52,395 bases of DNA, from positions 1-52,395 of the forward strand of contig JACRLT010000019.1 of the NCBI GenBank assembly GCA_016235185.1. The letters are read 5' to 3'. Numbering within the stretch: the first letter of the stretch is position 1; the number at the start of each line of letters is the position of its first letter. The translations under genes and the position numbers were made by a program. Of the stretch, positions 4,740 through 48,608 are shown in pieces. Origin of the DNA: Candidatus Omnitrophota bacterium. Lineage in GTDB: Bacteria; Omnitrophota; Gorgyraeia; Velamenicoccales; Velamenicoccaceae. Below the pieces are notes generated by a model. It ran no database searches. It was not told the origin of the DNA and worked only from the letters and a program-made list of their open reading frames with translations.

Positions 4740-4841
4740 CAACTTATCCCTTGCTTAAACGTTCCAAAATTTTCTTACGATAATTTTGGAACAAGCTGCG
4801 GGATTGATTTTGAGAGGAAAAAACCTACAATGGCAAAATCA
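4740..4841 (+). promoter_or_regulatory. class I stop-to-start RNA element before the UXS gene
   Basis: Structure by inspection: P1 ATCCC (4746-4750)/GGGAT (4800-4804); internal loop TT/TGC; P2 GCTT (4753-4756)/AAGC (4793-4796); 5' bulge AAAC; P3 GTTCCAAAATT (4761-4771)/AATTTTGGAAC (4782-4792). Segment B, TTGATTTTG (4804-4812), is perfectly complementary to segment C, CAAAATCAA (4834-4842), whose last base is the A of the start codon. The same layout occurs before rpsN, rplF, rplQ and mdh. Regulatory role is inferred. Confidence 0.65.
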
Positions 4842-5780
4842 ATGAAGACAGTGCTTATTACGGGCGGGGCGGGTTTTATCGGCTCGCATCTGTGTGACTT
4901 ATTCTTAAAAAACGGTTATAGGGTTTTGTGCGTGGATAATTTTATTACAGGCACAAAGGAAAATATCCGGCACCATATTTCAGATAAGAATTTCGCTTTG
5001 ATAGAGCACAATATCACTATCCCCATCTATTTAAAGGAAGACGTGGATATTGTCCTTCATTTTGCATCGCCTGCGAGCCCTGTTGATTATTTAAATTATC
5101 CTATCCAGACGCTTAAAGTCGGGTCTTTGGGCACGCACAATTCTTTGGGATTGGCCAAGGCAAAGGGAGCAACGTTCCTATTGGCCTCGACATCGGAAGT
5201 TTACGGCGACCCGCTGGTACATCCGCAGACAGAGGAGTATTGGGGTAATGTCAATCCGGTTGGGCCACGCGGTGTCTATGATGAAGCAAAGCGTTTTGCA
5301 GAGGCTATGACCATGGCTTATCACAGGGTCCATAAGGTGGATACGAAGATCGTGCGTATTTTTAATACCTATGGCCCGCGCATGAGGATGATGGACGGCA
5401 GGGTGGTCCCTAATTTTATTACGCAGGCCTTAAAAAATGAGCCAATTACGATTTATGGCGACGGTTCACAGACGCGCTCTTTCTGTTATGTTTCCGATCT
5501 TGTCGATGGGTTATACCGTCTGGTTAATTCCGGCCTGCACGACCCGGTTAACATCGGTAATCCGCATGAGATGAGTTTGAATGAACTTGCGGAATATATC
5601 AAGAAATTGACCGGCAGCAGGAGTAAGATAGTGTTCAAGCCCTTGCCCGAGGATGACCCGCGTCAGAGGCAGCCGGATATCGCGCGCGCCCGAGAAAAAC
5701 TCAAGTGGCTTCCCAAAGTGTCGCTCCAGGAAGGTTTGGTTGCGACCATTGCGTGGTTTAATAAGAATATCTCCCCGTAG
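4842..5780 (+). CDS. UDP-glucuronate decarboxylase-type NAD-dependent epimerase/dehydratase
   Basis: An extended short-chain dehydrogenase of 312 residues, expected to bind NAD+ and convert UDP-glucuronate to UDP-xylose. The glycine-rich [10 protein letters not shown] (residues 7-16) binds the cofactor, and the catalytic Ser/Thr (ASTSEVYG), Tyr146 and Lys150 (YDEAK) are in place. The segments [10 protein letters not shown] and DLVDGL are typical of this group, and the length matches bacterial UXS. An upstream in-frame ATG (4830) would add four residues. ATG 4842 is preferred because in the sister elements before rplQ and mdh the start codon sits at exactly this point of the repeated leader. 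Close relatives include dTDP-glucose dehydratases, so exact substrate is inferred from the adjacent dehydrogenase. Confidence 0.85.
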
Positions 5781-5854
5781 GTTTACCAGTTGGCCGGTTG
5801 GCCGGTCAACCGGTAAACCGGAAAACAGGCTAACAGGCAAACAGGCAAACCATC
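5780..5854 (+). repeat. CCGG-rich palindromic spacer with AACAGGC tandem repeats
   Basis: GGTTTACC (5780-5787, beginning on the last base of the stop codon) pairs with GGTAAACC (5812-5819), and inside it GTTGGCC (5789-5795) pairs with GGTCAAC (5804-5810). Three tandem AACAGGCW octamers follow (5824-5847), and GGCAAACC ends 4 bp before the next ATG. The AACC/GGTT vocabulary resembles the spacer before rpsM. No strong ribosome-binding site is visible. Confidence 0.6.
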
Positions 5855-6517
5855 ATGGTTATCGATTTTCATATTCATTCCAAGTATTCCTTTGATTGTT
5901 TCCTGGAGCCTGCGAAGATCATTGAACTCGCCAGACAAAACGGCATCGACGGGCTTGCTATAACAGACCACGATACCATGGCGGGAGTTGATGAGTTTAG
6001 GTCGCTGGCGCCGGATCTTTATATTATCGCCGGGCAAGAAATATCTACTAAAGACGGCGATATTTTAGGGCTTTTTCTAAAAACGGAAATAAAAAATTGC
6101 GAGGTCGCAAAAGAGGCTATCACAGAGATCAGGGCCCAGGGTGGACTGGCTGTTTTGGCGCATCCTTTTAAATGGCCCTTTCTTATGCGCTCGCCGGAAT
6201 TGTTAAAAAAATTCGACTGCATAGAGGTTTTTAATGCCAGGAATAATATTCCGTCGCCGTTCTTGGAAAATTTTCTTGCAAAAAGGGCCGTCTTTTGTAT
6301 GAACCTTGCGGGTATTGCCGGAAGCGATACGCATGAGGGTTTTGAATTGGGCAATGCGTATACTATTTTTGATTTTTCATCCGCGCAGGCAGATGACGAA
6401 GCGATAAAAAAAGCGATCCTGTCTAAACAAGTGCGAATCGCGGGGCAAGAGGTTTCTTTGGCCCTGGAAATCGTAAGCCATTTTTCCAGGTGTTTCAAGA
6501 GTTGGCGCAATAAATGA
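5855..6517 (+). CDS. PHP-domain metal-dependent phosphoesterase
   Basis: A 220-residue PHP-domain protein, cytoplasmic, related to the stand-alone PHP enzymes that hydrolyse nucleotide or histidinol-type phosphates. Metal-binding motifs in order are HIH (6-8), TDHD (37-40), the GQE segment, AHPF and GSDTH. All are intact, so it is probably active. It lies 74 bp after the UXS gene and overlaps the deacetylase gene by 4 bp (ATGA), which suggests coupling with the latter. The substrate is unknown; the sugar-nucleotide neighbours hint at a role in envelope carbohydrate metabolism, but this is only context. Confidence 0.8.
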   Translation: MVIDFHIHSKYSFDCFLEPAKIIELARQNGIDGLAITDHDTMAGVDEFRSLAPDLYIIAGQEISTKDGDILGLFLKTEIKNCEVAKEAITEIRAQGGLAVLAHPFKWPFLMRSPELLKKFDCIEVFNARNNIPSPFLENFLAKRAVFCMNLAGIAGSDTHEGFELGNAYTIFDFSSAQADDEAIKKAILSKQVRIAGQEVSLALEIVSHFSRCFKSWRNK

Positions 6518-7590
6518 GGAATATAGACAAAATAAATATCCTTCTTCGGCTGGGATTTAATTCAAAAACCCCTAAAATTTTTTCTTTCCACGATTCCCTT
6601 CCGGATGTTTTTTCAAGCTACATCGAGCTCCTCGCATATAAGCGTTACAACATCCTTGGCGGACAGGAATTGTTGGAACGCTTAAGCCTGCGAAGCAGCG
6701 AACCGAGGCGCGGGGCCAGGGAGGCAGTCCTTACCTTTGACGATGGGCGCCGTAACTGCTGGACAGTTATTTTCCCTCTTTTAAAAAAGTATAAAGTAAA
6801 GGCTATTTTTTTTATTATTCCGTCCCGCATAAGGGACACCGATGAGTATTGCCCTAATTTGGAAGATTATTGGAAAGGCCGCGTCTCCTGGGAGAATCTT
6901 TATTTAAGCCATCGCCGAGCGCCCTACCTTAGTTGGAAAGAGCTCCAGATCATGCAGGAGAGCGGCTTAGTCGAGATCCATTCGCATGGTTTGAGGCATG
7001 ATGTTGTCCGTGTAACATCGCGCGTAATGGATTTTCAGCATCCCGGCGTATACGAGATGCCTGTTTATTTTGATGAGTGGTTTGACGCAGGTCTGCCGCT
7101 TTTGGATTACCAGTGGGGGGCGCCGATATACGAACGTAGCTGGGCGCCTTTTGCATCAAATGTTTTTGTGCCTGACAGGCGCGCTGACACCGTGATGAAT
7201 GAGTTTGTGAAGAACAATGGCGGCTTCCTTTTTTTTAAAAACAAAAACTGGCGTAAGAAACTTTTTGAATATTACGGTTCGCAGAAAAAAAATTTCGGCA
7301 GAGGGCATTTTAAAAAAATGGAGAATAGGGAAGACGCGCGTACTTCTATTATGCAATCGAAAAGCCTGATAGAAAAAAGGATGAAGGACAAAAGCCTTTT
7401 TTTCTCCGTGCCGCTCTACCAGGGCAGCCCAGAGGTCTTAAGGATAGCGCAAGAGGCAGGTTATAAAGCTGTTTTTACAGGATATCAAGGCCTGCAGCAG
7501 GAACATAACTCTTTGTCCCCCAAGGCAGATAGATTATTTATTTTGACCCGCATTCCCAGCTTCTGGATAAAATTTTTGACTTACCTTTAG
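6514..7590 (+). CDS. polysaccharide deacetylase (NodB-homology) family protein
   Basis: A 358-residue protein with the NodB fold signature LTFDDG (73-78), which provides the catalytic base and a metal ligand, and the second metal motif HSHGLRH near residue 157, matching the H-S-H-x-x-x-H form. An insert of about 150 residues separates this from the C-terminal part (PLYQGSPEVLRIAQEAGYKAVF). No signal peptide is apparent, so it may act on lipid-linked or cytoplasmic precursors. The start overlaps the PHP gene stop (ATGA). No terminator was found between this gene and the strong promoter that follows. Confidence 0.8.
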   Translation: MRNIDKINILLRLGFNSKTPKIFSFHDSLPDVFSSYIELLAYKRYNILGGQELLERLSLRSSEPRRGAREAVLTFDDGRRNCWTVIFPLLKKYKVKAIFFIIPSRIRDTDEYCPNLEDYWKGRVSWENLYLSHRRAPYLSWKELQIMQESGLVEIHSHGLRHDVVRVTSRVMDFQHPGVYEMPVYFDEWFDAGLPLLDYQWGAPIYERSWAPFASNVFVPDRRADTVMNEFVKNNGGFLFFKNKNWRKKLFEYYGSQKKNFGRGHFKKMENREDARTSIMQSKSLIEKRMKDKSLFFSVPLYQGSPEVLRIAQEAGYKAVFTGYQGLQQEHNSLSPKADRLFILTRIPSFWIKFLTYL

Positions 7591-7613
7591 GGAAAAAATA
7601 ATTAAAAAAACTC

Positions 7614-7642
7614 TTGACAGAAAGCATTAATTTTAATAGAAT
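7614..7642 (+). promoter_or_regulatory. strong sigma70-like promoter for the tRNA/ribosomal superoperon
   Basis: A perfect -35 TTGACA (7614-7619) and TAGAAT (7637-7642) are 17 bases apart. The expected start near 7649 is about 11 bases upstream of tRNA-Thr. No other equally good promoter or any U-tract terminator was seen between here and rplQ, so this may drive the whole block. Confidence 0.75.
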
Positions 7643-7659
7643 TAACGCTTTACGAGTAC

Positions 7660-7732
7660 GCCCCTGTAGCTCAGCAGGTAGAGCACGTCCTTGGTAAGGA
7701 CGGGGTCACCGGTTCAATCCCGGTCGGGGGCT
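7660..7732 (+). tRNA. tRNA-Thr(GGT)
   Basis: Full cloverleaf: acceptor GCCCCTG/CGGGGGC with one G-U pair, anticodon arm CGTCC-TTGGTAA-GGACG with anticodon GGT, T arm ACCGG-TTCAATC-CCGGT, discriminator T. CCA is not encoded (the discriminator is followed by TAA), so the CCA must be added enzymatically. It is first in the superoperon. Confidence 0.95.
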
Positions 7733-7752
7733 TAAAGATAAGCTGAAAGAAA

Positions 7753-7902
7753 ATGAGAGAACACATATTGTTGGAATGTCCGGTTTGTAAGTCCAGGCTG
7801 TATTCTTATACGAAGAACAAGAAGAAGCATACAGAGCGCCTGGAGCTGAAGAAATTCTGCAAGATTTGCCGCCGGCACGAACCGCATAAAGAAGTCAAGT
7901 GA
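7753..7902 (+). CDS. rpmG: 50S ribosomal protein L33
   Basis: A 49-residue protein, MREHILLECPVCKSRLYSYT onward, with two CxxC pairs (Cys9/Cys12 and Cys36/Cys39), so it is the zinc-binding form of L33. The L33 hallmark of basic residues after the first pair (TKNKKKHTERLELKKFC) is clear. It sits between tRNA-Thr and tRNA-Trp just upstream of secE, the classical position of rpmG in many bacteria. The ribosome-binding site is weak (GAAAG 7745-7749). Confidence 0.95.
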   Translation: MREHILLECPVCKSRLYSYTKNKKKHTERLELKKFCKICRRHEPHKEVK

Positions 7903-7964
7903 GGCTTGTAAGACGAACTTAACCCATAGACAAAAGATGTCGGAGGGAGAAAGAATTGAAGGTT

Positions 7965-8038
7965 AGGAGCGTCGGTTAGTGGTAAACCACCGGTCTCCAA
8001 AACCGGAACTGCAGGTTCGATTCCTGCCGCTCCTGCCA
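7965..8038 (+). tRNA. tRNA-Trp(CCA)
   Basis: Acceptor AGGAGCG/CGCTCCT, anticodon arm CCGGT-CTCCAAA-ACCGG with anticodon CCA, T arm GCAGG-TTCGATT-CCTGC, discriminator G, and an encoded 3' CCA (8036-8038). In contrast, the tRNA-Thr upstream lacks an encoded CCA. It immediately precedes secE, a widely conserved arrangement. Confidence 0.95.
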
Positions 8039-8052
8039 GAATATCAAAGACA

Positions 8053-8247: not shown

Positions 8248-8774
8248 TGAAGAAGTGGTATGTTGTCCATACGCAGACGGGTTCGGAAGATAAAGTTAAA
8301 AAGAGCTTGGACGGACGTATTTCGACAAGCGGCTTGAAGGACTTTATGGGCCAGATACTGATACCGACAGAGCAGGTTTCAGAAGTCAGGTCCGGCAAAA
8401 AAAAGGTTACCGAACGCAAGTTCTTTCCTGGCTATATATTAGTTGAGATGGAGTTGAACGAAAATACGTGGCTTCTGGTGCGTACCACTCCGGGCGCTAC
8501 GGGTTTTATCGGGATGGGAAAGCAGCCTTCGTCTTTGACCCAGGATGAAGTAGATAACATCATGAAGCGCACGGTCGAGACAAAAGCTAAGCCCAGCCCC
8601 AAGGTCCATTTTGAAAAAGGAGAAGCGGTCCGCATCATAGAGGGCCCATTTTTTTTTTTTTTTTTCAGTATCGAGGAAGTAAACCCGGAGAAGCAAAAGA
8701 TAAAAGTCAGTGTTTCCATATTTGGAAGGTCAACGCCCGTAGAATTAGAATTTTGGCAAGTGGAGAAAGTATAA
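8247..8774 (+). CDS. nusG: transcription termination/antitermination factor NusG
   Basis: A 175-residue NusG with an N-terminal NGN domain ([25 protein letters not shown]) and a C-terminal KOW domain (about 122-175; [12 protein letters not shown] ... [20 protein letters not shown]). It binds RNA polymerase and links it to Rho or ribosomal S10. The oddity is in the KOW domain: where families have GPF-A-[DN]-F-x-G-x-[IV]EE, this gene reads GPF followed by F136-F140 and Ser, encoded by 17 consecutive T residues (8649-8665). The length is unchanged relative to the family pattern but the conserved glycine and acidic/polar residue are lost. Either a real variant or a sequence/assembly artefact. Confidence 0.93.
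8649..8665 (+). repeat. 17-T homopolymer inside nusG
   Basis: Seventeen consecutive T bases encode five TTT codons and the first two bases of TTC. On the RNA they follow a short potential hairpin GGTCC (8629-8633)/GGGCC (8643-8647), so the region also resembles an intrinsic terminator or a slippage site. Confidence 0.9.
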
Positions 8775-8775
8775 T

Positions 8776-9201: not shown

Positions 9202-9216
9202 TAAGAGGAGCTAGCT

Positions 9217-10436: not shown

Positions 10437-10504
10437 ATTTGACCCCGCCGCTTTGCAAAGCGGCGGGGTAATTTACAGACGAAAAAATAAGGAGGGTAAA
10501 TTAA
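10434..10504 (+). promoter_or_regulatory. stop-to-start RNA element before rplL
   Basis: A perfect palindrome folds as ACCCCGCCGCTTTG (10442-10455)/CAAAGCGGCGGGGT (10456-10469). Segment A, TAAATT (10434-10439), contains the rplJ stop codon and pairs with AATTTA (10470-10475). Segment B, TAATTTAC (10469-10476), is perfectly complementary to segment C, GTAAATTA (10496-10503), just before the ATG. A and C compete for B. The Shine-Dalgarno GGAGGG (10491-10496) lies in the B-C loop. No U run follows the hairpin, so it is not a classical terminator. Confidence 0.65.
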
Positions 10505-10885: not shown

Positions 10886-10996
10886 CGCAGAAAGCGTCAC
10901 ACCCGCGCAATACCCTATAAGCGCGGGGTGTGAGTGCAGTATAAGTATATATAGGTAAGTAACCGGCCCATAATCGAGCATTATGGAGACAAATAG
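10886..10996 (+). promoter_or_regulatory. structured spacer before rpoB
   Basis: Hairpin 1: GTGACGC (10882-10888, containing the rplL stop) with GCGTCAC (10894-10900). Hairpin 2: CACACCCGCGC (10898-10908) with GCGCGGGGTGTG (10921-10932), one G bulged. These two share CAC and exclude each other. Hairpin 3: CCATAAT (10968-10974)/ATTATGG (10980-10986), which takes in the first bases of the GGAG ribosome-binding site (10985-10988). Confidence 0.55.
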
Positions 10997-14404: not shown

Positions 14405-14456
14405 CACGTTCGACTTCGCTCAGTGTCATCCTGAGTGACGAAAGAGGAATCGAAGG
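14402..14456 (+). promoter_or_regulatory. stop-to-start RNA element before rpoC
   Basis: TGACAC (14402-14407), beginning with the rpoB stop, pairs with GTGTCA (14423-14428). TCATCC (14426-14431) pairs with GGATGA (14455-14460), which contains the rpoC start codon. The two pairings share TCA and compete. CTCAG/CTGAG (14419-14423/14431-14435) is a third option. The sequence resembles, from memory, the CTTCGCTCAG/CTGAGxGA palindromic repeat seen in many unrelated genomes. AGAGG (14443-14447) is the likely ribosome-binding site. Confidence 0.55.
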
Positions 14457-18894: not shown

Positions 18895-18968
18895 GAGCAC
18901 AAGTTGATCCCTCTCCGCTTTTGGCGGATCGGGATGAATTAACAGATAGATAAAAAGAGGGTTAATTC
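18895..18968 (+). promoter_or_regulatory. stop-to-start RNA element before rpsG
   Basis: Hairpin ATCCC (18907-18911)/GGGAT (18931-18935) with inner TCCGC (18914-18918)/GCGGA (18924-18928). Segment B, ATGAATTAAC (18934-18943), is a perfect 10-bp complement of segment C, GTTAATTCAT (18961-18970), which includes the AT of the rpsG start codon. The ribosome-binding site AGAGG (18956-18960) abuts the helix. B also overlaps the hairpin's 3' arm. Confidence 0.65.
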
Positions 18969-19439
18969 ATGAGAAGAAGACAGGCGGTTAAAAGACAGAT
19001 TCTAGCGGATCCGAAATATAATTCAAAGATCGTTGCCAAATTCATAAACATAATTATGATCAAGGGCAAGAAGTCGCTGGCTGAAAATATCGTTTACGGA
19101 GCTTTTGATATTATCAAACAGAAGTCCGGCGAAGATGACGCATTGAAGGTTTTCAACAAGGCGCTGGAGAACATCCGCCCGCGGCTTGAAGTTAAGCCCA
19201 GGCGTGTGGGCGGTGCAACATATCAGGTGCCGATAGAAGTAAACCAGGAGAGGGGCGTGTCTTTGGCCCTCCGGTGGCTCAAGGATTTTTCAAGAGGGAA
19301 AAAAGGAAAACCTATGATGGATCGCCTGGCCGATGAGATCCTGGCCGGTTATAAAGGTGAGGGCGCCGCCATCAAGAAAAGAGACGATACGCATAAGATG
19401 GCAGAGGCCAATAAGGCCTTCGCCCATTTCAGGTGGTAA
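18969..19439 (+). CDS. rpsG: 30S ribosomal protein S7
   Basis: A 156-residue S7, the standard length, starting [20 protein letters not shown]. It nucleates assembly of the 3' major domain of 16S rRNA. The central [24 protein letters not shown] segment and the C-terminal [14 protein letters not shown] are typical. The stop overlaps the fusA start in TAATG. In E. coli S7 controls the str operon at the S12-S7 spacer, so the start-codon-occluding element here sits at the same location. Confidence 0.97.
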
Positions 19440-26121: not shown

Positions 26122-26213
26122 GAAAGGTTAAATTAAGGAATTAAGATCTATCCCGTTTTTGCAAGCAAAAGCCGGGATAATTTGCGGACAAAAATAATCC
26201 AGAGGTCAAATTT
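26122..26213 (+). promoter_or_regulatory. class II stop-to-start RNA element before rpsC
   Basis: P1 TATCCCG (26149-26155)/CGGGATA (26173-26179) with inner TTTTG/CAAAA. Segment B, AATTTG (26179-26184), is complementary to C, CAAATT (26207-26212), two bases before the ATG. Segment A, AAATTA (26130-26135), is complementary to TAATTT (26178-26183). It contains copy 1 of the exact 54-nt repeat. GAGG (26202-26205) would be held in the B-C loop. Confidence 0.6.
26130..26183 (+). repeat. exact 54-nt repeat, copy 1 of 3
   Basis: Identical at all 54 positions to 35755-35808 and 36241-36294. It runs from AAATTAAGGAATTAAG through the ATCCCG hairpin to GGGATAATTT. Outside these 54 bases the three elements diverge, but the bases that pair with the downstream segment change together. 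Confidence 0.9.
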
Positions 26214-29115: not shown

Positions 29116-29228
29116 TTGACTCCTTGTCTAAATGCTTCAAAATTTTCTAGCGATAATTTTGAAGCAGACTACGGAGTTGATTTTGCAAGGAAAATACCTG
29201 AAATATACAAAATCAAGAAAGGATAGCT
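29116..29228 (+). promoter_or_regulatory. class I stop-to-start RNA element before rpsN
   Basis: P1 GACTCC (29118-29123)/GGAGTT (29173-29178); internal loop TT/TAC; P2 GTCT (29126-29129)/AGAC (29166-29169); bulge AAAT; P3 GCTTCAAAATT (29134-29144)/AATTTTGAAGC (29155-29165). Segment B, TTGATTTTG (29177-29185), is a perfect complement of C, CAAAATCAA (29208-29216), adjacent to the AAAGGA ribosome-binding site. P3 differs from that of the uxs element by paired compensatory changes. Confidence 0.65.
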
Positions 29229-29414: not shown

Positions 29415-29585
29415 TTTTAGCCGACTACGTCGGACTAAAATCATCTCGAGCCTCTTTTGAGATTGATCTTCAGGCGAGAGATAAAAGAGATGAGAAGAGA
29501 CCCCTCGTCTTGAGGGATGTGTAGCAAGAAAGACTCGGGGTTAATTTACATAAATAGAGCAGAACGTAAATTAAGGAGTAATTAA
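29413..29585 (+). promoter_or_regulatory. double-hairpin stop-to-start RNA element before rpsH
   Basis: Hairpin 1 begins in the rpsN stop: GATTTTAG (29413-29420)/CTAAAATC (29435-29442) with inner CCGAC/GTCGG. Hairpin 2: GACCCC (29499-29504)/GGGGTT (29537-29542), internal loop TC/TC, GTCTT (29507-29511)/AAGAC (29530-29534). Segment B, TTAATTTAC (29541-29549), is a perfect complement of C, GTAAATTAA (29566-29574), which abuts the GGAG ribosome-binding site (29575-29578). Confidence 0.6.
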
Positions 29586-29981: not shown

Positions 29982-30108
29982 GTATTGACTCCTTGTTTAA
30001 GCGCTCGTAAATTTTTCCCAGGTTTGCCGGGCAAAATTTATTTCGCAAACTGCGGAGTTAATTTTTAGATGAACAGAAACTTTTGATAATACAAAATTAA
30101 GGTGCTCT
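29982..30108 (+). promoter_or_regulatory. class I stop-to-start RNA element before rplF
   Basis: P1 ATTGACTCC (29984-29992)/GGAGTTAAT (30054-30062), one G-U; internal loop TT/TGC; P2 GTTT (29995-29998)/AAAC (30047-30050), a covarying version of the GTCT/AGAC helix; P3 starts GCG/CGC and continues TAAATTTT (30008-30015)/AAAATTTA (30033-30040). Segment B, TTAATTTT (30058-30065), complements C, AAAATTAA (30093-30100), just before GGTG and the ATG. Confidence 0.65.
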
Positions 30109-35245: not shown

Positions 35246-35323
35246 ATCAGTTTTTTGGTTGACTTGTTAACCGGTTAACCGGTTAACCGGTTAACCGGCA
35301 ACGGGTTAACAAACGGAGTTGAT
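35246..35323 (+). repeat. tandem TTAACCGG palindromic repeat before rpsM
   Basis: Four exact tandem copies of the octamer TTAACCGG occupy 35267-35298. The outer helix TTGTTAACC (35264-35272)/GGTTAACAA (35304-35312) encloses them. GGAG (35315-35318) is the ribosome-binding site five bases before the ATG. The array can fold in several registers, so its length may vary by slippage. It replaces the hairpin found in other spacers. Confidence 0.75.
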
Positions 35324-35734: not shown

Positions 35735-35839
35735 AAGAAGTAATTTGAGGGGGTAAATTAAGGAATTAAGATCTATCCCGTTTTTGCAAGCAAAAGCCGG
35801 GATAATTTACAGACAAAGTAATACAGGGGGTAAATTAGA
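35735..35839 (+). promoter_or_regulatory. class II stop-to-start RNA element before rpsK
   Basis: P1 TATCCCG (35774-35780)/CGGGATA (35798-35804). Segment B, TAATTTAC (35803-35810), is a perfect complement of both A, GTAAATTA (35753-35760), upstream of the hairpin and C, GTAAATTA (35830-35837), just before ATG 35840. A fourth segment, TAATTT (35741-35746), can pair with A. It contains copy 2 of the 54-nt repeat. AGGGGG (35825-35830) is the ribosome-binding site. Confidence 0.7.
35755..35808 (+). repeat. exact 54-nt repeat, copy 2 of 3
   Basis: Identical to 26130-26183 and 36241-36294. The flanking bases that extend segment B (AC here, GC in copy 1, CC in copy 3) match the local A and C segments rather than each other in copies 2 and 3. 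Confidence 0.9.
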
Positions 35840-36226: not shown

Positions 36227-36324
36227 AATAAGCAAAGGGGAAATTAAGGAATTAAGATCTATCCCGTTTTTGCAAGCAAAAGCCGGGATAATTTCCAAAC
36301 GAGAGAGAAACAGAGGGGAAATTT
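36227..36324 (+). promoter_or_regulatory. class II stop-to-start RNA element before rpsD
   Basis: The same hairpin as before rpsK, P1 TATCCCG/CGGGATA (36260-36266/36284-36290). Segment B, TAATTTCC (36289-36296), pairs perfectly with A, GGAAATTA (36239-36246), and over seven bases with C, GGAAATT (36317-36323), just before the ATG. Relative to the rpsK copy, the terminal bases changed in all three segments together (AC to CC; GT to GG). It contains copy 3 of the 54-nt repeat. Confidence 0.7.
36241..36294 (+). repeat. exact 54-nt repeat, copy 3 of 3
   Basis: Identical to 26130-26183 and 35755-35808; copies 2 and 3 are separated by a single gene, rpsK. Confidence 0.9.
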
Positions 36325-36954: not shown

Positions 36955-37173
36955 GGACAGCTTCTTTCAAGCTGGATTATGTGTCCGAATTTATCCCGAG
37001 CGGCTATGGTAAAGACATGGGCAGCGAGGGAGAAGTAATATAGATAGACAAATAAGTAGTCGGCTATAGCAGTAAGGTTATTGATCCCTCGCTCCAACAA
37101 GCTTAAAAACAAAAAAGCTCGGGATTAATTTGCAACATCGTAAGCACTGTAAGCAAATTAAGGAGGAAGCAAG
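36955..37173 (+). promoter_or_regulatory. 219-nt nested-hairpin leader before rpoA
   Basis: Hairpin 1: CAGCTT/AAGCTG (36958-36963/36969-36974). Outer helix: ATCCCGAGC (36993-37001)/GCTCGGGAT (37117-37125). Nested helix: AGCGAGGGA (37023-37031)/TCCCTCGCT (37085-37093). Segment B, TTAATTTGC (37125-37133), is a perfect complement of C, GCAAATTAA (37153-37161), adjacent to the GGAGG ribosome-binding site (37162-37166). No ORF was recognised in it. It is the longest member of the family. Confidence 0.6.
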
Positions 37174-38166: not shown

Positions 38167-38264
38167 ATAGACCCCTCGCATTAGCGCTTGAAAATTGTCT
38201 GCGATAATTTTCAAGCATGCTTCGGGGTTAATTTTGTAAGGAAAAACTAAAAGAGGCAAAATTA
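38167..38264 (+). promoter_or_regulatory. class I stop-to-start RNA element before rplQ
   Basis: P1 GACCCC (38170-38175)/GGGGTT (38224-38229); internal loop TC/TTC; P2 GCAT (38178-38181)/ATGC (38217-38220); bulge TAGC; P3 GCTTGAAAATT (38186-38196)/AATTTTCAAGC (38206-38216). Segment B, TTAATTTTG (38228-38236), complements C, CAAAATTAA (38257-38265), which ends on the A of the ATG. AGAGG (38252-38256) is the likely ribosome-binding site. Confidence 0.68.
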
Positions 38265-38843
38265 ATGAGACATAAAAGAAATACGCAGAATCTTTCCCGT
38301 TTCAGCTCTTATTTCAAGGCGACTGTAAGGTCGCTTGCCCGCGCGGTCCTGATCAATAACAGGATAATCACTACCAAGGTAAGGGCTAAGGTTGCCAGGC
38401 CGTTGGTGGAAAAGCTTGTTTCGCTTGGCAAGGATATCGATTCTCTGGCAGCGCGACGCAGGGCATATTCCATATTGAGCGACCACCAGCTTGTCCATAA
38501 GTTATTCTCCGATATTGGCCCGCTTTTTGCCCAGAAGAATGGCGGATATACCAGGATCATACCCTATAAACGCAGGCGCGGAGATAATGCCGAATTGGTT
38601 GTTTTGGAGCTTTCTTTGCAGAAGGCTTTACCCAAAGAGAAGCTGGAAAAACATGCGGCCAAGAAGACGCAAGACAAAGAGATAAAGGCAATGGCTGCGG
38701 AGTCGACAAGAGAACATAAGGCCCAACATAAGGATGTGGCTCCTCCGGAAAAAGGTAAACACAAGAAAGATAAAGAAAAACCTGCTAAAAGATCGTTGGG
38801 CGGTTTAGGAAAAATGTTCAAGTCAGAACGGGATTCGTTGTAG
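38265..38843 (+). CDS. rplQ: 50S ribosomal protein L17 with charged C-terminal extension
   Basis: The first 120 residues are L17: MRHKRNTQNLSRFSSYFKAT, TTKVRAKVARPLVEKLVSLG, then the C-terminal GGYTRIIPYKRRRGDNAELVVLEL. The protein continues for about 65 extra residues rich in Lys, Glu, Ala and His (KKTQDKEIKAMAAESTREHK ... KGKHKKDKEKPAK), probably disordered. It ends the superoperon's ribosomal genes. Confidence 0.95.
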   Translation: MRHKRNTQNLSRFSSYFKATVRSLARAVLINNRIITTKVRAKVARPLVEKLVSLGKDIDSLAARRRAYSILSDHQLVHKLFSDIGPLFAQKNGGYTRIIPYKRRRGDNAELVVLELSLQKALPKEKLEKHAAKKTQDKEIKAMAAESTREHKAQHKDVAPPEKGKHKKDKEKPAKRSLGGLGKMFKSERDSL

Positions 38844-43985: not shown

Positions 43986-44079
43986 TTGACTCCTTGTCTA
44001 ACCGTCCGCCATTGATTCATTGGCGGACAGACTGCGGAGTTAATTTTGTGAAGAAAAATACCTTAGGTAGGCAAAATTA
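43986..44079 (+). promoter_or_regulatory. class I stop-to-start RNA element before mdh
   Basis: P1 ATTGACTCC (43985-43993, first base in the upstream stop)/GGAGTTAAT (44036-44044); internal loop TT/TGC; P2 GTCT (43996-43999)/AGAC (44029-44032); bulge AACC; P3 GTCCGCCA (44004-44011)/TGGCGGAC (44021-44028). Segment B, TTAATTTTG (44040-44048), complements C, CAAAATTAA (44072-44080), ending on the A of the ATG. It is outside the ribosomal operon, so the element is not tied to ribosomal proteins. Confidence 0.68.
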
Positions 44080-45027
44080 ATGAAAAAAGTTGCGATCATA
44101 GGCGCAGGCAATGTAGGCGGGACAACCGCTATGAGGATCGCCGAGACCGGCTTAGCCTGCGTTGTTTTGATCGACGTTGCAGAAAATGTTGCCCGCGCCA
44201 AGGCATTTGACCTTGAAGATGCCAGGTATAGTTTAGGCAGGGATACGCGCGTAGAGGGCTCCAGCGAGATAAGCCGTATTAGCGGTTCTGATATTGTTGT
44301 TATGACCGCAGGCCTCCCCAGAAAACCGGGAATGACACGGGAGGACCTGCTTGCCAAGAACGCTTCGATAATGAAAGATGTTTGCAGCGGCATTGCTCAA
44401 TACGCAAAGGATGCCATCCTTATCGTGGTCAGCAATCCTTTGGATGTCATGACGTATCTGGCATATAAAACAACAGGGTTTGAGCGCCATAAAGTTTTAG
44501 GCATGGGCGTGAACCTTGATACCTCACGATTTGCCAACCTGATCTCTAAAAAATTATTTATCGGCACCGAGCATATCAAGGCTTTAGTCATAGGCAGCCA
44601 CGGCGAGACTATGCTGCCTTTGCCTCGCCTGACCAAGGTCAGGGGCAAGGCCTTGATAGATCTATTGGAAAAGAAAGAAGTAGAAAGACTCGTGATAGAT
44701 ACGAGGGCAAGAGGCGCAGAGATCGTGTCTTTATACGGCTCGGGAAGCGCCTACATGGCCCCATCGGCTGCGATATACGAACTCGTTGAAACCATCCTTA
44801 CCGGCCACTCCAAAGAACTTCCTGTAAGCGCTGTTTTAGACGGTGAATACGGCCTTTATGATGTTTCTATAGGCGTACCTGCAATTATAGGTCCAGAAGG
44901 CATAGAAAGGATCTTGGAAGCTGATCTGACCAGCGAAGAGAAAGAGGCTTTTCTGCAATCCGCCCAATCTATCAAGAATTCGATCAATAGTTTAAATATC
45001 TGGCCTTTGGAAGAACATGGACTATGA
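44080..45027 (+). CDS. mdh: malate dehydrogenase
   Basis: A 315-residue LDH-like malate dehydrogenase. The Rossmann motif GAGNVGG (8-14), Arg81 and Arg87 in GLPRKPGMTR (malate-type, with arginine where lactate enzymes have glutamine), Arg150 and catalytic His174 in GSHGETM are all present. It interconverts malate and oxaloacetate with NAD. It overlaps the lipoamide dehydrogenase gene by 11 bp. Confidence 0.93.
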   Translation: MKKVAIIGAGNVGGTTAMRIAETGLACVVLIDVAENVARAKAFDLEDARYSLGRDTRVEGSSEISRISGSDIVVMTAGLPRKPGMTREDLLAKNASIMKDVCSGIAQYAKDAILIVVSNPLDVMTYLAYKTTGFERHKVLGMGVNLDTSRFANLISKKLFIGTEHIKALVIGSHGETMLPLPRLTKVRGKALIDLLEKKEVERLVIDTRARGAEIVSLYGSGSAYMAPSAAIYELVETILTGHSKELPVSAVLDGEYGLYDVSIGVPAIIGPEGIERILEADLTSEEKEAFLQSAQSIKNSINSLNIWPLEEHGL

Positions 45028-46267
45028 TGTTTGCATAATCGGCGCAGGCTGGGCAGGTTTTAATGCGGCACGAGCCGCAGCTAAACTCGGCAAAAAGGCC
45101 TGTATCGCAGAATACCGCGAGATCGGCGGCACATGCTTAAACCGCGGTTGTATCCCCACCAAAGCTTTTGTCCACTATTCAAAAATAGGCTTTTCCTTAG
45201 GCGACATCCGGAAAAAGAAGGACGAGGTAGTCGGTCGTTTGAGGGACGGCATGTCCTATCTGGTAAAATCGAACAAAATAGATTATTTTAAGGGTAGGGC
45301 CTTAGTCAAGAAAGACGGCAGCGTTTCTATCGGCACGGATAATATCAAACCAAAATATATCCTGTTAGCCGCTGGTTCCTCGCCAAAAGACCTCCCCAAT
45401 ATTAAAATAGACCACAAAAAGATCATCTCAAGCGACGACATGCTGTCTTTAGACGCAGTTCCAAAAAAGCTTTTGGTCGTCGGAGGCGGTGTCATCGGCT
45501 GTGAGTTTGCCTCTATATTTGCGCGGCTTGGCTCTGATGTAACCATTGTTGAGATAACCGGTCAGTTATTACCGGGCGTGGATAGCCAGGTAAGCAAAAA
45601 ACTATTATCAGCTTTTCAAAAAACCGGAATAACAGTCTTATTGGGCAAAGGGGCGCAAGATCTTGATCTCAATAGTTTTGATAAAGTCCTTTTGAGCGTG
45701 GGCCGGGGCGCTGTTATCGACGGCCTATGGGAGGACGGCGTTGGTATAAAAGTGGATAAAGGGTTTATTGCGGTTGACAGAGGCCTAAAGACTGCCATTC
45801 CCAATATTTTTGCTGCCGGTGATTGCATAGGCGGTTATATGCTGGCGCATGTTGCAAGTTACGAAGGGGAGCTCGCAGTCAACAATATGTTTGAAAAACA
45901 GGAAAAAAGGGATTATTCAGTTATACCAAGCAGCGTTTTTACAGCGCCGGAGATCGGCTCTGTGGGTTTGAGCGAGGAGGAGGCAAAACACTTTGGCGCC
46001 TCTTACAAAGCCTCGAGTGTGCATTTTTTGTCCGTAGGCATGAGCCATATTTTCGGAGATACCCAGGGCTTTGCCAAAGTTATAGTGGATACGAAAAGCG
46101 GCAAAATTTTGGGAGCCACTATTATTGGCCTGCAGGCCACGGAACTCGTGAATATATTTTCTGTCTTGATAAAAAACAATATAACTATTTTTGAATTGAA
46201 AAAAACAATATTCGCTCATCCCAGTGTTTCCGAGATAGTGGCCGAAGTAGCTAAACAAGCACTTTAG
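45017..46267 (+). CDS. lpd: dihydrolipoamide dehydrogenase-like flavoprotein
   Basis: A 416-residue FAD-dependent disulfide reductase. The FAD motif GAGWAG starts at residue 9, the redox-active pair is Cys40/Cys45 in GTCLNRGCIPTK, and the NAD motif VGGGVIGCEFA follows. The second FAD motif is FAAGDCIGG, and the C-terminal dimer domain keeps AHPSVSE. It is about 40 residues shorter than usual. With LipB and a lipoyl domain encoded next, it is probably a true Lpd. Confidence 0.9.
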   Translation: MDYDVCIIGAGWAGFNAARAAAKLGKKACIAEYREIGGTCLNRGCIPTKAFVHYSKIGFSLGDIRKKKDEVVGRLRDGMSYLVKSNKIDYFKGRALVKKDGSVSIGTDNIKPKYILLAAGSSPKDLPNIKIDHKKIISSDDMLSLDAVPKKLLVVGGGVIGCEFASIFARLGSDVTIVEITGQLLPGVDSQVSKKLLSAFQKTGITVLLGKGAQDLDLNSFDKVLLSVGRGAVIDGLWEDGVGIKVDKGFIAVDRGLKTAIPNIFAAGDCIGGYMLAHVASYEGELAVNNMFEKQEKRDYSVIPSSVFTAPEIGSVGLSEEEAKHFGASYKASSVHFLSVGMSHIFGDTQGFAKVIVDTKSGKILGATIIGLQATELVNIFSVLIKNNITIFELKKTIFAHPSVSEIVAEVAKQAL

Positions 46268-46334
46268 TGTGCGCCAAAGGCGCATTTAGCGCAGTCCTTG
46301 TGAGTTTTTGCGAACAAGGAAACATTTTGAAACT
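46268..46334 (+). other. spacer with two small hairpins before lipB
   Basis: GCGCC/GGCGC (46271-46275/46279-46283) and CCTTGT/ACAAGG (46296-46301/46314-46319). The second would sequester AAGG, the only candidate ribosome-binding site for lipB, which lies at a long spacing from the ATG. Confidence 0.4.
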
Positions 46335-46994
46335 ATGTATACTTTACATGAATGCAGATATTTGGATGCCGGTTTTCTCGATTACCCGCAAGCCTTGTCT
46401 TTGCAGAAGAGGATATTAAACAGCGTTATCGACGGCGAGGCATCGCATACGCTGATCTCCTGCCAGCATCCGCATATCATCACCTTGAGCCGCAGGACCC
46501 GTAAAGAAAGCATTTTGGCTGGGCAGCAGGAGCTTGAAAAATGCAACGTGGGCATTTATTGCGCGGACAGGGGCGGGGATGCCACATATCACGGGCCAGG
46601 GCAGATCGTCCTGTATCCGATCTTTGACCTGCGAAAGAAAGAGAAAGACCTGCATTTGTACCTAAGAAGATTAGAAGAGACAGTAATTTGCGCCCTTCGC
46701 GATAACTTTGGCCTCAATGCCTACAGAAAGAGCGGCTTTACCGGTGTATGGGTGGGCCCTTACAAGGTGGTATCCATCGGTATAGGCGTGCGGCACTGGG
46801 TAACCTATCACGGGCTTGCCTTAAATGTCAAGACGGACAAAAGTTTTTTTTCTCTGATCAAGCCATGCGGCCTGGATGTCAAGATGGCATCCATCAATGA
46901 TTTTTTTGACGACGATGTTTCTATCGAGAGCGTGCGCGATATGCTGGTAAAAAGTTTCTGCGAGGTTTTTGAGCTTAGGATGACGGAGGTTTAA
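46335..46994 (+). CDS. lipB: octanoyl-[acyl carrier protein]:protein octanoyltransferase LipB
   Basis: A 219-residue LipB that transfers octanoate from ACP to lipoyl domains. RGGDATYHGPGQ (79-90), Lys144 in the VGPYKVVSIG stretch and the catalytic Cys178 (KPCGL) are present, as is the TYHGLALNV strand. ATG 46335 is chosen over TTG 46308, which would add nine residues with no better ribosome-binding site. It is followed one base after its stop by the lipoyl-domain gene, an obvious substrate. No lipA (lipoyl synthase) is in the window. Confidence 0.94.
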   Translation: MYTLHECRYLDAGFLDYPQALSLQKRILNSVIDGEASHTLISCQHPHIITLSRRTRKESILAGQQELEKCNVGIYCADRGGDATYHGPGQIVLYPIFDLRKKEKDLHLYLRRLEETVICALRDNFGLNAYRKSGFTGVWVGPYKVVSIGIGVRHWVTYHGLALNVKTDKSFFSLIKPCGLDVKMASINDFFDDDVSIESVRDMLVKSFCEVFELRMTEV

Positions 46995-46995
46995 A

Positions 46996-47265
46996 ATGAT
47001 CAAAGTATATTTGCCGGAGTTGGGAGAGAACATCACAAAGGCGACGATCTCTTACTGGTATCAGGATGAGGGCGCAAGCGTCATCGAAGGCAATGACCTG
47101 GTAGAGGTGGCGACTGACAAGGCGACGTTCAACGTGCCTGCGCCATGCTCGGGCACCCTTGTTGAGATACTCGCCCATGAAGCCGACACCGTCCACCCGG
47201 GCGACGTATTAGCGGTTATTGAAGAAGACACGGTTACCGGAGAAGGAGACGAGCCGGAAGTTTGA
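46996..47265 (+). CDS. free-standing lipoyl-domain protein
   Basis: An 89-residue protein consisting only of a lipoyl/biotinyl domain, beginning MIKVYLPELGENITKATISY. Lys42 in VEVATDKATF is the expected lipoylation site, and the E2-type VYLPELGENI opening is unlike glycine-cleavage H protein. There is no subunit-binding or catalytic E2 domain. GGAGG lies upstream. Either a split E2, a lipoyl carrier protein, or a remnant; the adjacent lipB and lpd argue it is used. Confidence 0.85.
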   Translation: MIKVYLPELGENITKATISYWYQDEGASVIEGNDLVEVATDKATFNVPAPCSGTLVEILAHEADTVHPGDVLAVIEEDTVTGEGDEPEV

Positions 47266-47305
47266 CCAAATTCTATATCAAAAGTGAAATAGTTCATTAT
47301 ATTAT

Positions 47306-47371
47306 CTTAGTAATATAATATTATAGTAAGATTGACACCAGTAAGGAAATATGCTATTCTTACTATAAGAA
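47306..47371 (+). promoter_or_regulatory. promoter and operator of the toxin-antitoxin pair
   Basis: TTGACA (47332-47337) and TATTCT (47355-47360) are 17 bases apart, with an extended TGC before the -10. A 15-nt palindrome, TTCTTA-CTA-TAAGAA (47357-47371), overlaps the -10 and start site. Its octamer CTTACTAT recurs inverted as ATAGTAAG (47323-47330) just upstream of the -35, with a looser copy at 47306-47314. This fits repression by the antitoxin encoded next. Confidence 0.7.
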
Positions 47372-47386
47372 AGAGAGGTGGAGAAG

Positions 47387-47668
47387 ATGGTTACTAAAAT
47401 GACTGTAAAAAATCAAATCACTATCCCTAAAAGGATTTTAGAGGCCGTAGGACTCGCTAATCTTAAAAAAGATGAGATGTATTTTGATATCGAAGCCAAA
47501 AATCATGGGATTTTTTTAAAACCAATGACGGTTACCGTAGAAGAAAGAATACCGCAAGAGCAGTGGCAAAAATTCGAAACTCGCGCCGCAAAGATCGATA
47601 AAGGTGACGAGGTTTTTGATTCTCCTGAAAAGGCAGCCGAATTTTTGAAAAAAAGGGTTAAAAAATGA
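47387..47668 (+). CDS. AbrB/MazE-type antitoxin
   Basis: A 93-residue protein with an N-terminal SpoVT/AbrB-like DNA-binding swapped-hairpin (VTKMTVKNQITIPKRILEAVGL) and a C-terminal tail rich in charge that would wrap the toxin. ATG 47387 with GAGGTGG at 6-base spacing is chosen over GTG 47378. It overlaps the toxin gene by 4 bp. The palindromes in its promoter are the probable operator. Confidence 0.82.
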   Translation: MVTKMTVKNQITIPKRILEAVGLANLKKDEMYFDIEAKNHGIFLKPMTVTVEERIPQEQWQKFETRAAKIDKGDEVFDSPEKAAEFLKKRVKK

Positions 47669-47946
47669 AGATAGTCTACAAAAAGGACTTCCTTAAATCC
47701 TTTTCTTCTTATACGCGGCAAGAACAGGAATTGATTTTAGAGGCCGACAAACAGATAAAGCTATTTCTTGAAGCAAAGTTTGAGGACGTTCCATACGGAG
47801 TAAGGATAAAAAAGATAGGCCCAAATACATTTGAGGCAAGGGTCAATGATAAAATACGCATAATTTGGGTAAAAACTGATAAGGTTGCCTATTTTGTTTT
47901 AATAGGCAACCATGAGGACGTTCGCCGCTATATTAAACATTCTTAG
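47665..47946 (+). CDS. RelE/ParE-superfamily toxin
   Basis: A 93-residue basic protein with the RelE-like layout: MKIVYKKDFLKSFSSY opening, central YGVRIKKIGPNTFEARVNDKIRIIW and closing VLIGNHEDVRRYIK. The family usually cleaves mRNA on the ribosome or inhibits gyrase; which applies is not clear from sequence. It is coupled to the antitoxin gene (ATGA). Confidence 0.8.
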   Translation: MKIVYKKDFLKSFSSYTRQEQELILEADKQIKLFLEAKFEDVPYGVRIKKIGPNTFEARVNDKIRIIWVKTDKVAYFVLIGNHEDVRRYIKHS

Positions 47947-48011
47947 GGAACCAAGTGTCAAAAGAATATAATTTATCTTAACAACTCCAAAAATATATGT
48001 AAAATGGAACC

Positions 48012-48219
48012 ATGTATACCAGATTAATAGAACCTCCTAAAGATAAAAGTTTCTTTTTGTTCGGCCCTCGCGGCACAGGGAAAAACGACGTGGGTGAAAT
48101 TGAAGTTTACAGGTGCTATTTATTATGGAGGGGAACGCCGTCTGCGCTACGGTAATATTGAGGTCATCCCTGCGCAAGAAGCTTTGAAAGGGCTTGCGGC
48201 AATTTTGTCTGGTCATTGA
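48012..48219 (+). pseudogene. remnant of AAA-ATPase (DUF4143-type) gene
   Basis: From ATG 48012 the frame reads MYTRLIEPPKDKSFFLFGPR and then GTGK, a Walker A start typical of the ATPases with a C-terminal DUF4143 domain. One extra A near 48084 shifts the frame; removing it restores GKTTWVK. The text then jumps to YYGGERRLRYGNIEVIPAQE, which looks like the extreme C-terminus of the same family, and ends at TGA 48217. So about 300 internal residues are missing and a frameshift is present. It is non-functional. Confidence 0.65.
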
Positions 48220-48237
48220 AGGATTTTTGCAACTGTA

Positions 48238-48266
48238 TTGACATATTTGGTATTTTGCGCTACATT
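48238..48266 (+). promoter_or_regulatory. sigma70-like promoter for the HTH gene
   Basis: A perfect TTGACA (48238-48243) and TACATT (48261-48266) with 17-base spacing; predicted start near 48273, about 45 bases before the HTH start codon. Confidence 0.65.
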
Positions 48267-48317
48267 ATCTCTAGTTGTGTTTAGTTAGTCATAATTGTTC
48301 TCAAAATAGTGGGGGCT

Positions 48318-48527
48318 ATGAGAGAAAAAGATATAATGGAGGCCAGGGAGGTCGCAGAGTATTTGCATCTGCATCCTTTTACAGTACACAAGCTTGCGCG
48401 CGAAACAAGATTGCCGGGTTTTAAAATAGGCAATGATTGGAGATTCAGGAGATCCGCTATTGAGAAGTGGGTAAAGCTTCAGGAAAAATTGAACCATAAT
48501 AAGAATAGCGCAAGGCACAAGCTCTAA
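48318..48527 (+). CDS. excisionase-type helix-turn-helix protein
   Basis: A 69-residue protein with a MerR-like/excisionase HTH (EAREVAEYLHLHPFTVHKLARETRLPGFKIGNDWRFRRSAIEKWVK). Such proteins bind DNA, either as recombination directionality factors or small regulators. ATG 48318 is used; GTG 48309 adds three residues without support. It has its own promoter and a perfect terminator at its stop, so it is a single-gene unit. No integrase is in the window. Confidence 0.8.
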   Translation: MREKDIMEAREVAEYLHLHPFTVHKLARETRLPGFKIGNDWRFRRSAIEKWVKLQEKLNHNKNSARHKL

Positions 48528-48550
48528 GTCAAAGACTTAGAGCTTTTTTT
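48519..48550 (+). terminator. rho-independent terminator after the HTH gene
   Basis: AAGCTCTAAGTC (48519-48530)/GACTTAGAGCTT (48534-48545) with an AAA loop, followed by a run of seven T (48544-48550). The stem begins inside the HTH coding end and includes its stop codon. This is the only classical terminator seen in the window. Confidence 0.9.
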
Positions 48551-48608
48551 GCCGCAGAAAGCGGCACACCGGCCATACCGATTAGGCCGGGTGACAGTGG
48601 TATATATC
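48551..48608 (+). promoter_or_regulatory. structured leader before the ketosynthase homologue
   Basis: Hairpins GCCGC/GCGGC (48551-48555/48561-48565) and CCGGCC/GGCCGG (48569-48574/48585-48590). Loop bases ATACC (48575-48579) can pair with GGTAT (48599-48603), close to the ATG, a weak version of the loop-to-start pairing seen before the aminotransferase. No clear promoter was recognised here although the preceding gene is terminated. Confidence 0.35.

Follow-up and report, generated by a model that had tools for sequence, protein, structure and literature searches.

The window and its spacers

The window analysed here is a stretch of 52,395 nucleotides (nt) from a Candidatus Omnitrophota bacterium, read on the forward strand of contig JACRLT010000019.1 (contig C3 of the 1.79-Mb assembly GCA_016235185.1, in 55 contigs). 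It carries ribosomal-protein and RNA polymerase genes along with others such as uxs and mdh, and five of its spacers hold members of one structured element family, which is the subject of this text. The names of the ribosomal and polymerase genes were taken from a sequence-only reading and from inspection of the frames, and synteny with relatives confirms them. Relatives found with RpoA were Omnitrophota, including Candidatus Velamenicoccus archaeovorus LiM, whose genome is taken to be G006; G000 is the source genome of the window and G001 a relative of the same genus. The sequence-only reading had claimed that at 14 loci a hairpin after the upstream stop codon is followed by a segment (B) complementary to a segment (C) at the downstream ribosome-binding site or start codon, and that in some spacers a further segment (A) competes for B.

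All features given below lie on the + strand, and matches were scored with R1, a covariance model (CM) of the family. The member before uxs (4745..4842; 98.6 bits) also fits the stem pattern of the family and has B at 4804-4812 and C at 4834-4842, which implies an ATG start at 4842. The member before rpsN (29118..29216; B 29177-29185, C 29208-29216) was the best match of the genome with 107 bits, while those before rplQ (38170..38265; B 38228-38236, C 38257-38265), mdh (43988..44080; B 44040-44048, C 44072-44080) and rplF (29987..30100) scored 97.1, 85.7, and 59.2 bits, respectively. Weak matches occurred before rpsH (29499..29574; 25.8 bits, E 0.0071), rpoA (37083..37161; 21.2 bits, E 0.053), and rpsK (35775-35838, within the spacer 35735..35839; 15.5 bits, E 0.61).

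Complementarity of the B and C segments

The complementarity was tested in 20 window spacers. For each, the longest Watson-Crick run joining the final 28 nt through the start codon to any segment upstream was compared with those of 100 dinucleotide shuffles, and no hairpin was required before B. The best runs summed to 147, compared with a mean of 108.9 and a maximum of 118 in the shuffles, and this comparison, which the sequence-only reading had itself proposed, did not refute it. Runs of at least 8 bp were found in 11 of the 20 spacers (shuffles: mean 0.8, maximum 3). Nine of the 14 claimed loci reached this length (rplL, rpsG, rpsN, rpsH, rplF, rpsK, rpoA, rplQ, and mdh), with p values from 0/100 shuffles up to 0.08 at rplF, the weakest with 8 bp. 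The uxs spacer was a tenth (9 bp, TTGATTTTG/CAAAATCAA) only with the ATG start at 4842 implied by the family alignment, whereas the start at 4830 gave 6 bp (p 0.51). Among the unclaimed spacers, two also scored, with 9 bp before rpsM (p 0.05) and 8 bp before aspC (p 0.04). In contrast, comparison with 100 shuffles lent the claim no support at rpoC, where the run was 6 bp (p 0.28), or at rpsQ, where it was 5 bp (p 0.65), and the runs of 6 bp at rpsC (p 0.45) and 7 bp at rpsD (p 0.19) were weak when taken alone. The observation is partly confirmed; the complementarity is real and extends beyond the window.

Runs of 9 bp seen in 0/100 shuffles paired B TTAATTTAC with C GTAAATTAA, adjoining GGAG, before rpsH, and B TTAATTTGC with C GCAAATTAA, adjoining GGAGG, before rpoA. 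The longest run was the 10 bp of the rpsG spacer (18895..18970; 0/100 shuffles), between B 18934-18943 (ATGAATTAAC) and C 18961-18970 (GTTAATTCAT), with C covering the AT of the start codon. The rplL spacer (10437..10504) has a hairpin directly after the stop codon and pairs B 10469-10476 (TAATTTAC) with C 10496-10503 (GTAAATTA) over 8 bp (p 0.03), with GGAGG in the loop. Neither the rpsG nor the rplL spacer had an R1 match. The spacers of rpsC (26122..26213), rpsK and rpsD (36227..36324) carry the same inserted module, AAGGAATTAAGATCTATCCCG..CGGGATAATTT. In rpsK (8 bp, p 0.03), the 12-nt sequence GGGGGTAAATTA occurs as a direct repeat that forms both A and C, and B is TAATTTAC; in rpsD, B is TAATTTCC and C is GGAAATT. 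The statement that most primary sequences differ was therefore half right, since uxs, rpsN, rplF, rplQ, and mdh form one sequence family and a second module is common to rpsC, rpsK, and rpsD. In these last three spacers segment A can be seen, but the family does not conserve it.

Architecture and covariation of the family

Model matches were 52-189 nt long with a median of 112. In the computed fold, helix P1 (CUCC/GGAG or UCCC/GGGA) is followed by an internal loop of the UUG/UUC type and helix P2 of the GCUU/AAGC type. A bulge close to AAAC then leads to hairpin P3, which varies greatly, and the last helix is P4, the B-C helix. The stem pattern TTRATTTTG-N14-40-CAAAATYAA had 54 exact matches in G000, while the reversed-pattern control had none. 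At stem position 3 of P4, 48 oriented copies had G-C in 25, A-T in 21, and A.C in 2 cases; this R/Y pair is the only informative one in P4 of the alignment, as the rest of the helix was preselected by the stem pattern. The alignment holds 32 of the 48 oriented copies, with 16 omitted for a long P3, no clear P1 partner, or an odd P1. In it, 93.7% of 891 cells were paired, compared with 80.4% in shuffled and at most 53.3% in slid alignments, and the covariation score was 0.394, compared with 0.159 and at most 0.162, respectively.

In a wider set of CM alignments, which are biased toward the model structure, structure-free mutual information ranked pairs of all four helices high. Two P4 pairs were among the top values, with pair 61-98 ranking fifth; over 80 rows it was AT in 43, GC in 29, AC in 4, and CG in 3, while pair 63-96 was TA in 67, CG in 11, and CA in 1. 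A general structured element with a covarying B-C helix at the downstream start region, reaching beyond ribosomal genes, is accordingly upheld, and covariation, tested among copies of the family, did not refute it. Between orthologous spacers proper, covariation could be followed in five pairs only and gave weak results.

The plan varies between lineages. In G022 and G031, from two other families, P4 is UUAAU/AUUAA around a second variable hairpin (TTAATTCG-hairpin-CTCATTAA), and in the LiM genus it is often TTAATTCCGCC-AGA-GGCGGAATTAA, with a similar P1-P3 plan. A P3 arm of 30 bases was found in 21 places, identical in 19 of them, and the P1, P2, and P4 around it differ; 20 of the 21 places fall inside the listed CM matches. 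A known Rfam RNA or cis-regulator family was rejected, as the window yielded only two tRNAs at the gathering scores of Rfam release 15, and 11 copy-bearing loci searched up to E 1 gave five matches, all far under gathering scores.

Distribution and position at gene and tRNA starts

R1 matches were found in 18 of 39 genomes. The count was at least 91 in G000, a lower bound because 104 of 1155 candidates were scored, 64 in G003, 62 in G004, 12 in G007, 6 in G001, and 0 in G002. G005 and G006 had 42 and 53 matches, rising to 45 and 57 when more candidates were scored, and 53 were found in G021, from another family. In a sample of the phylum, the element family was present in 39 of 285 genomes (E 1e-4), all within the class of G000; with at most 14 candidates scored per genome and stricter filters, this survey is one of presence only. 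No such element in Omnitrophota was described in the titles and beginnings of abstracts of the literature surveyed, with subscription papers mostly outside this scope.

Contexts were taken for 246 distinct copies, with identical ones counted once (in a smaller set, 127 matches became 123). They cover 80 of 91 matches in G000, 51 of 57 in G006, 45 of 45 in G005, 25 of 64 in G003, 10 of 12 in G007, 6 of 6 in G001, 11 of 47 in G021 (E 0.001), 10 of 13 in G022, and 8 of 12 in G031, while in G004 ribosomal junctions only were included. The element ended within 3 nt of a Shine-Dalgarno (SD)-like sequence, a start codon, or the first base of a tRNA in 188 of the 246 copies, a statistic that depends on where the model ends its matches, which is not reliable in G021 and G022. 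By class, 141 copies were followed by an SD and then a start, 41 overlapped or touched the start codon, and 6 met a tRNA 5' end; 20 were followed by the next copy, 5 by an IS110 left end, and 1 by the end of the locus, leaving 32 unclassified, partly short genes or early stops of the model. An ATG frame lay on the same strand at the 3' side of 181 copies and on the opposite strand at the 5' side of 19.

At the 3' side of the P4 loop, AGG or GGG occurred in 18 of 25 AUG-type copies, compared with 33 of the 93 other copies whose right flank is rich in G, some of them tandem, IS110 and tRNA copies (p 0.0014). The element therefore tends to supply ribosome-binding bases in AUG-type copies.

All six tRNA-adjacent copies touch the first base of the tRNA or overlap it by one base. 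These tRNAs are Tyr three times, Ser twice, and Leu once (L086 and L123 in G000, L155 in G003, L196 in G005, L258 in G006, and L285 in G021), which we take to be the three class II tRNAs. By eye, other hairpins or inverted repeats end at the first base of tRNA-Tyr in G001 (L309), G003 (L308), and, imperfectly, G007 (L307), and none precedes tRNA-Tyr in G004 (L311). This suggests that several element families obey the same tRNA boundary. A similar sequence, GGAACGAGC..., directly follows a copy in two genera (L127 in G000 and L162 in G006); it has no obvious open frame and no Rfam match at gathering score, and is perhaps an unannotated RNA gene.

Gain, replacement and stacking of copies

The five strong members of the window are absent from the orthologous spacers of G001, so that presence and absence were found at orthologous sites. 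These spacers measured 1 nt in G001 and 98 nt in G000 for rpoA-rplQ, 4 and 94 for leuB-mdh, 20 and 90 for ugd-uxs, 35 and 113 for rplE-rpsN, and 69 and 127 for rpsH-rplF. The rplQ junction reads TAAT|ATG in both G001 and G002. Spacers of G001 were likewise short at rplV-rpsC (15 nt), rpmC-rpsQ, and rpsD-rpoA, where the sequence is AAATTAAGGAGG without the insert; its rpsG spacer has 12 nt, and its rplL spacer lacks the hairpin and keeps AATTTACAGAC. Some spacers of G001 were as long as or longer than those of G000 (rplL-rpoB 126 and 111 nt, rpmJ-rpsM 103 and 78 nt), and other relatives have members at other junctions. By these comparisons, the copies appear to be recent gains.

Gene positions occupied in common exceeded a rough estimate of chance, made for an assumed 1,700 genes, in most pairs of genomes, with 12 against 0.7 for G005 and G006, 5 against 0.95 for G000 and G003, and 2 against 1.26 for G000 and G005. 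The 12 common positions of G005 and G006 adjoin proteins that are 76-98% identical. Of the elements at these positions, 3 were near-identical (0.91-0.95), 4 fairly similar (0.79-0.85), and 5 like random pairs (0.55-0.68), for which the median similarity was 0.72 and the 95% point 0.82. Copies also occurred in tandem pairs and triples, joined by linkers of 11-12 nt such as GGAATAAACGTT. Common positions with dissimilar elements, together with these tandems, therefore indicate that copies spread and stack and that some positions are refilled. Presence and absence between close relatives, tandem stacking, and replacement by other members together argue that the family spreads, probably as a non-autonomous mobile or gene-converting repeat, of which the exchange itself is an inference.

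An IS110-family element was observed directly after the ..AAGGAG end of a member in six of six places at contig ends of G000 (C6, C9, C16, C28, C34, and C46; loci L058, L212, L128, L140, L083, and L092, respectively). The repeat that follows several G000 copies is the left end of an IS110-family element. This left end is common to G028 and G035 and in G028 also follows AATAAGGAG; the homologous place in G028 holds an IS110-type transposase (Pfam PF01548, PF02371). By sequence, the family is evidently a landing site of the IS110-family element.

Candidates for the origin of the element were also sought among known mobile systems. A miniature inverted-repeat element or other classical transposon derivative recognisable by target-site duplication was not supported, and neither was an origin as repetitive extragenic palindromes (REP) with their RAYT enzymes inferred from co-occurrence, as copy number shows no evident relation to Y1 transposase genes. 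An integron attC origin was rejected because G000 has no integron integrase over the cut-off of 265 bits (best 81.3 bits); only G021 passes, with a match of 413.6 bits at C97:7680-8639. For a derivative of IS200/IS605 ends, no autonomous copy or cognate enzyme was identified, and the geometry of P4 could fit the guide pairing reported for such ends.

A probable spreading leader element

Promoter-like sites reaching 9 of 12 matches occurred at 12 of 25 copies far from an upstream stop codon (21.6% in shuffles) and at 9 of 69 near one (9.3% in shuffles), with mean scores of 8.72 of 12 for copies without a near upstream stop and 7.51 for the others (p 3e-5). As such sites are commoner before copies without a near upstream stop, transcription of the element is likely. 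Promoter function of the element itself was rejected, since no consistent -10 box was seen at the junction by eye and the promoter-like sites lie upstream of leader copies instead.

Taken jointly, the results make it probable that what the spacers contain are members of a family of small, structured repeats interspersed in Omnitrophia genomes, and that each is a spreading, position-locked and non-autonomous putative leader of about 110 folded bases. An enzyme that recognises hairpins would place the element, and its transcript would give the next gene a folded 5' boundary. In AUG-abutting copies, which tend to have SD bases in the P4 loop and tie the first base of the AUG into the stem, P4 would probably damp initiation. 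In GGAG-abutting copies the ribosome site would lie outside the stem, and the element would probably act as a spacer, insulator, or stability element, less as an on-off switch.

Several results, beside the unreliable model ends in G021 and G022, weigh against such a spreading RNA leader. Flanks were no more alike than those of shuffled pairs (mean longest common string 4.61 and 4.57, respectively), with direct repeats at rpsC, rpsK, and rpsD as the exception to the missing target-site duplication. The search for a mobilising enzyme was negative; 31 of the 39 genomes have Y1 transposases, with no evident relation to copy number (3 genes and 64 copies in G003, 8 and 0 in G024, 0 and 12 in G007). 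The one-way layout is not universal, as at least 7 matches in G021 form overlapping inverted pairs, and the junction rule fits only 5 of the 11 copies examined there. G.U pairs numbered 22 against 20 A.C in P1, P2, and P4, and 395 against 352 in all predicted helices; G.U hardly exceeds A.C, which is not the usual mark of RNA under selection, and strict RNA selection by G.U excess was not seen. For P1-P3, the antisense strand gave the better fold in 156 cases and the sense strand in 35 (mean 2.3 kcal/mol). In five vertical pairs, a sense-biased consensus fold had changes in 15 of 380 paired and 26 of 188 unpaired columns (p 4e-5), whereas helices from both strands gave 25 of 391 and 16 of 177, which is not clear-cut. 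In the both-strand analysis, one-sided changes produced G.U in 9, A.C in 3, and other mismatches in 5 cases, and of the two-sided changes 3 were compensated and 2 were not. Selection for the fold in place is accordingly weakly indicated by these pairs.

Some of these results bear on an alternative that we regard as possible though not likely, namely a single-stranded DNA element whose bottom-strand hairpins serve as substrates, as in REP, attC, or IS200/IS605 ends. B-C would then be the pairing of a guide with a cleavage site, and the position at gene starts would reflect specificity of insertion, not function. Along with the small G.U margin, the better antisense fold of P1-P3 speaks for it, as random windows of the + strand showed the reverse trend (143 against 55). 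Loops of the GNA/GNNA type closed by C-G, described in PMC4686876 as extraordinarily stable in DNA, were found on the antisense strand in 22 of 53 cases in G000, 5 of 6 in G021, and 3 of 7 in G031; they were rare, however, in G003 (2 of 17), G005 (6 of 39), and G006 (1 of 41). That all six tRNA copies meet the first base is hard to explain as function, and the direct repeat of A and C in rpsK would fit as well.

The overlapping inverted pairs of G021 raise the weight of the DNA alternative because they resemble paired REPs. They consist of two inverted P1-P3 hairpins around a common middle (e.g., L300 and L305; +/- pairs at C82:113643-113788, C81:62980-63125, and C67:73711-73874), and none was found at E 0.01 in the G000 set. 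G000 has 9 Y1_Tnp matches, and judged by coordinates two of these lie no more than about 0.8 kb from a copy. On the other side stand the lack of an evident tie to Y1 gene number, the absence of an R1 match in the 8 of 20 Y1 loci searched, and a slight preference of P4 for the sense strand (102 against 64, p 0.03); the specificity of the right flank is also not what insertion of the IS200/IS605 kind is said to predict.

Other alternative explanations

Cleavage of the RNA at or near AA|G, which would release mRNAs at their SD or AUG and tRNAs with mature 5' ends, appears unlikely. Such a processing element would explain why one junction rule covers SD, AUG, and tRNA +1, and why other hairpins adjoin the same tRNA-Tyr in related genomes. 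AUG-type copies, however, tend to hold their own SD inside the element, where cleavage would leave it without use; tandem copies would be processed twice, and G004 does without a hairpin before tRNA-Tyr.

A vertically kept cis-regulatory RNA without mobility, whether riboswitch-like or a protein-binding leader, is quite unlikely. Conserved unpaired bases, covarying helices, the excess of common positions over rough chance, and five closely similar orthologous pairs would agree with it, but the targets, named by eye, look unrelated (RibH, ParA, SMC, CspA, PilB, L25, YajC, and others). Numbers within the same genus differ between 91 copies, a lower bound, and 6, and swapped members and tandem arrays also contradict vertical retention.

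The mechanism offered in the sequence-only reading was a termination-reinitiation switch: whether A pairs with B, or B with C, would be settled by the ribosome as it completes the upstream gene. A ribosome-decided choice of this kind did not hold up and is very improbable as an account of the family. In the test for segment A, 216 of the 246 copies could be parsed. A-B runs of at least 4 bp were above shuffles in G000 (20 of 74, 2.0 expected) and somewhat so in G006 (6 of 42, 1.4 expected), G003 (3 of 22, 0.6 expected), and G005 (4 of 43, 1.4 expected), yet A is missing in most copies; no such run occurred among the 8 of G007 and G001 or the 27 of three other families. An upstream frame, counted from 70 codons or as an open frame of 60 running to the locus end, ended within 20 nt of 102 copies, but none ended within 60 nt of another 102, some of which follow a tandem copy. 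Under a laxer rule (50 codons, or 30 if off the locus), a frame ended within 160 nt of 118 of 123 copies. Leaders headed by promoter-like sites and tRNA-adjacent and tandem copies also do not fit the switch. The SD-like sequence lies beyond the stem end in 141 of the 246 copies, and therefore B-C does not bury the SD there. A different switch, in which CUCC pairs either GGAG-1 or the real SD, was rejected (P1 was CTCC in 65 of 93 SD-type copies against 14 of 25, p 0.23).

Chance complementarity of AT-rich spacers, which would suffice for rpoC, rpsQ, rpsC, and rpsD alone as they fall within the shuffle range, is rejected for the family, with next to no probability left to it, by the shuffle test, the pattern count, covariation, mutual information, and the very existence of the family.

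Other repeats and features of the window

The rpoB-rpoC spacer (14405-14456) holds a different repeat of the CTTCGCTCAGTGTCATCCTGAG type, which was also found at the same junction in G003 and, in a longer form, in G005 and G006, making four genomes in total. Spacers are filled in yet another way at 5781-5854, before the gene at 5855, and at 35246-35323, before rpsM, by short repeated units resembling GGTTAACC. The nusG reading frame contains 17 consecutive T at 8649-8665, perhaps an assembly error or a slippage site.

Comparison with known systems and implications

REP and BIME sequences, which are associated with RAYT (Y1) transposases, are imperfect hairpins present in many intergenic copies, and REPs reportedly serve as landing sites for insertion sequences. 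The element resembles them in its intergenic hairpins, in the presence of Y1_Tnp genes in the genome (assigned at the level of the family match, at which RAYTs are not told apart), in the inverted pairs of G021, and in the IS110 landing sites. It differs in that the window's family has two different hairpins per element, locked to the next gene start, and in that copy number does not evidently follow Y1 genes. Integron attC sites often lie from stop to start and have a stem with an unpaired centre, a variable tip, and a better bottom-strand fold. All of these traits recur here, whereas G000 and its family have no integrase above the cut-off (only G021 does), no RYYYAAC/GTTRRRY boxes were seen by eye, and cassette arrays are missing. 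Ribosomal-protein leaders and Rfam cis-regulators are likewise structured and precede ribosomal-protein genes, but the element has no Rfam match, stands before many other genes, and has a high copy number.

As a rule, small repeats in bacteria build up at sites where they cause little damage. This was argued for the pneumococcal repeats in PMC3049150, where the BOX, RUP, and SPRITE elements of Streptococcus pneumoniae were located between convergent genes in 16, 23, and 15 places, respectively, an over-representation with p of 0.0017 or less. Those elements are similarly small, interspersed, and folded, with dozens of copies, and can be transcribed as operon extensions (PMC3049150). In contrast, most copies of the Omnitrophota element end where a downstream gene or tRNA begins. 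Its family is located directly at translation starts and some tRNA 5' ends, including those of ribosomal-protein operons, and members are replaced with no shift of that boundary.

As a tentative reading, which we would put forward as conceivable and not as probable, the family may be a portable 5'-boundary element that spreads itself and stops exactly where functional RNA begins, at an SD, an AUG, or a tRNA +1. Joined to it, at the same strength, is the proposal that the copies may act class-wide as interchangeable leaders before essential genes, with hairpins that would be both DNA mobility signals and initiation-tuning RNA. The complete genome of Candidatus Velamenicoccus archaeovorus, with its 57 matches, makes the question directly testable, and a metatranscriptome of a culture of this organism has been published according to PMC13153191. 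Either an unknown insertion mechanism would recognise where functional RNAs begin, or translation in an uncultured bacterial class would be subject to a regulatory layer that can be exchanged rapidly.

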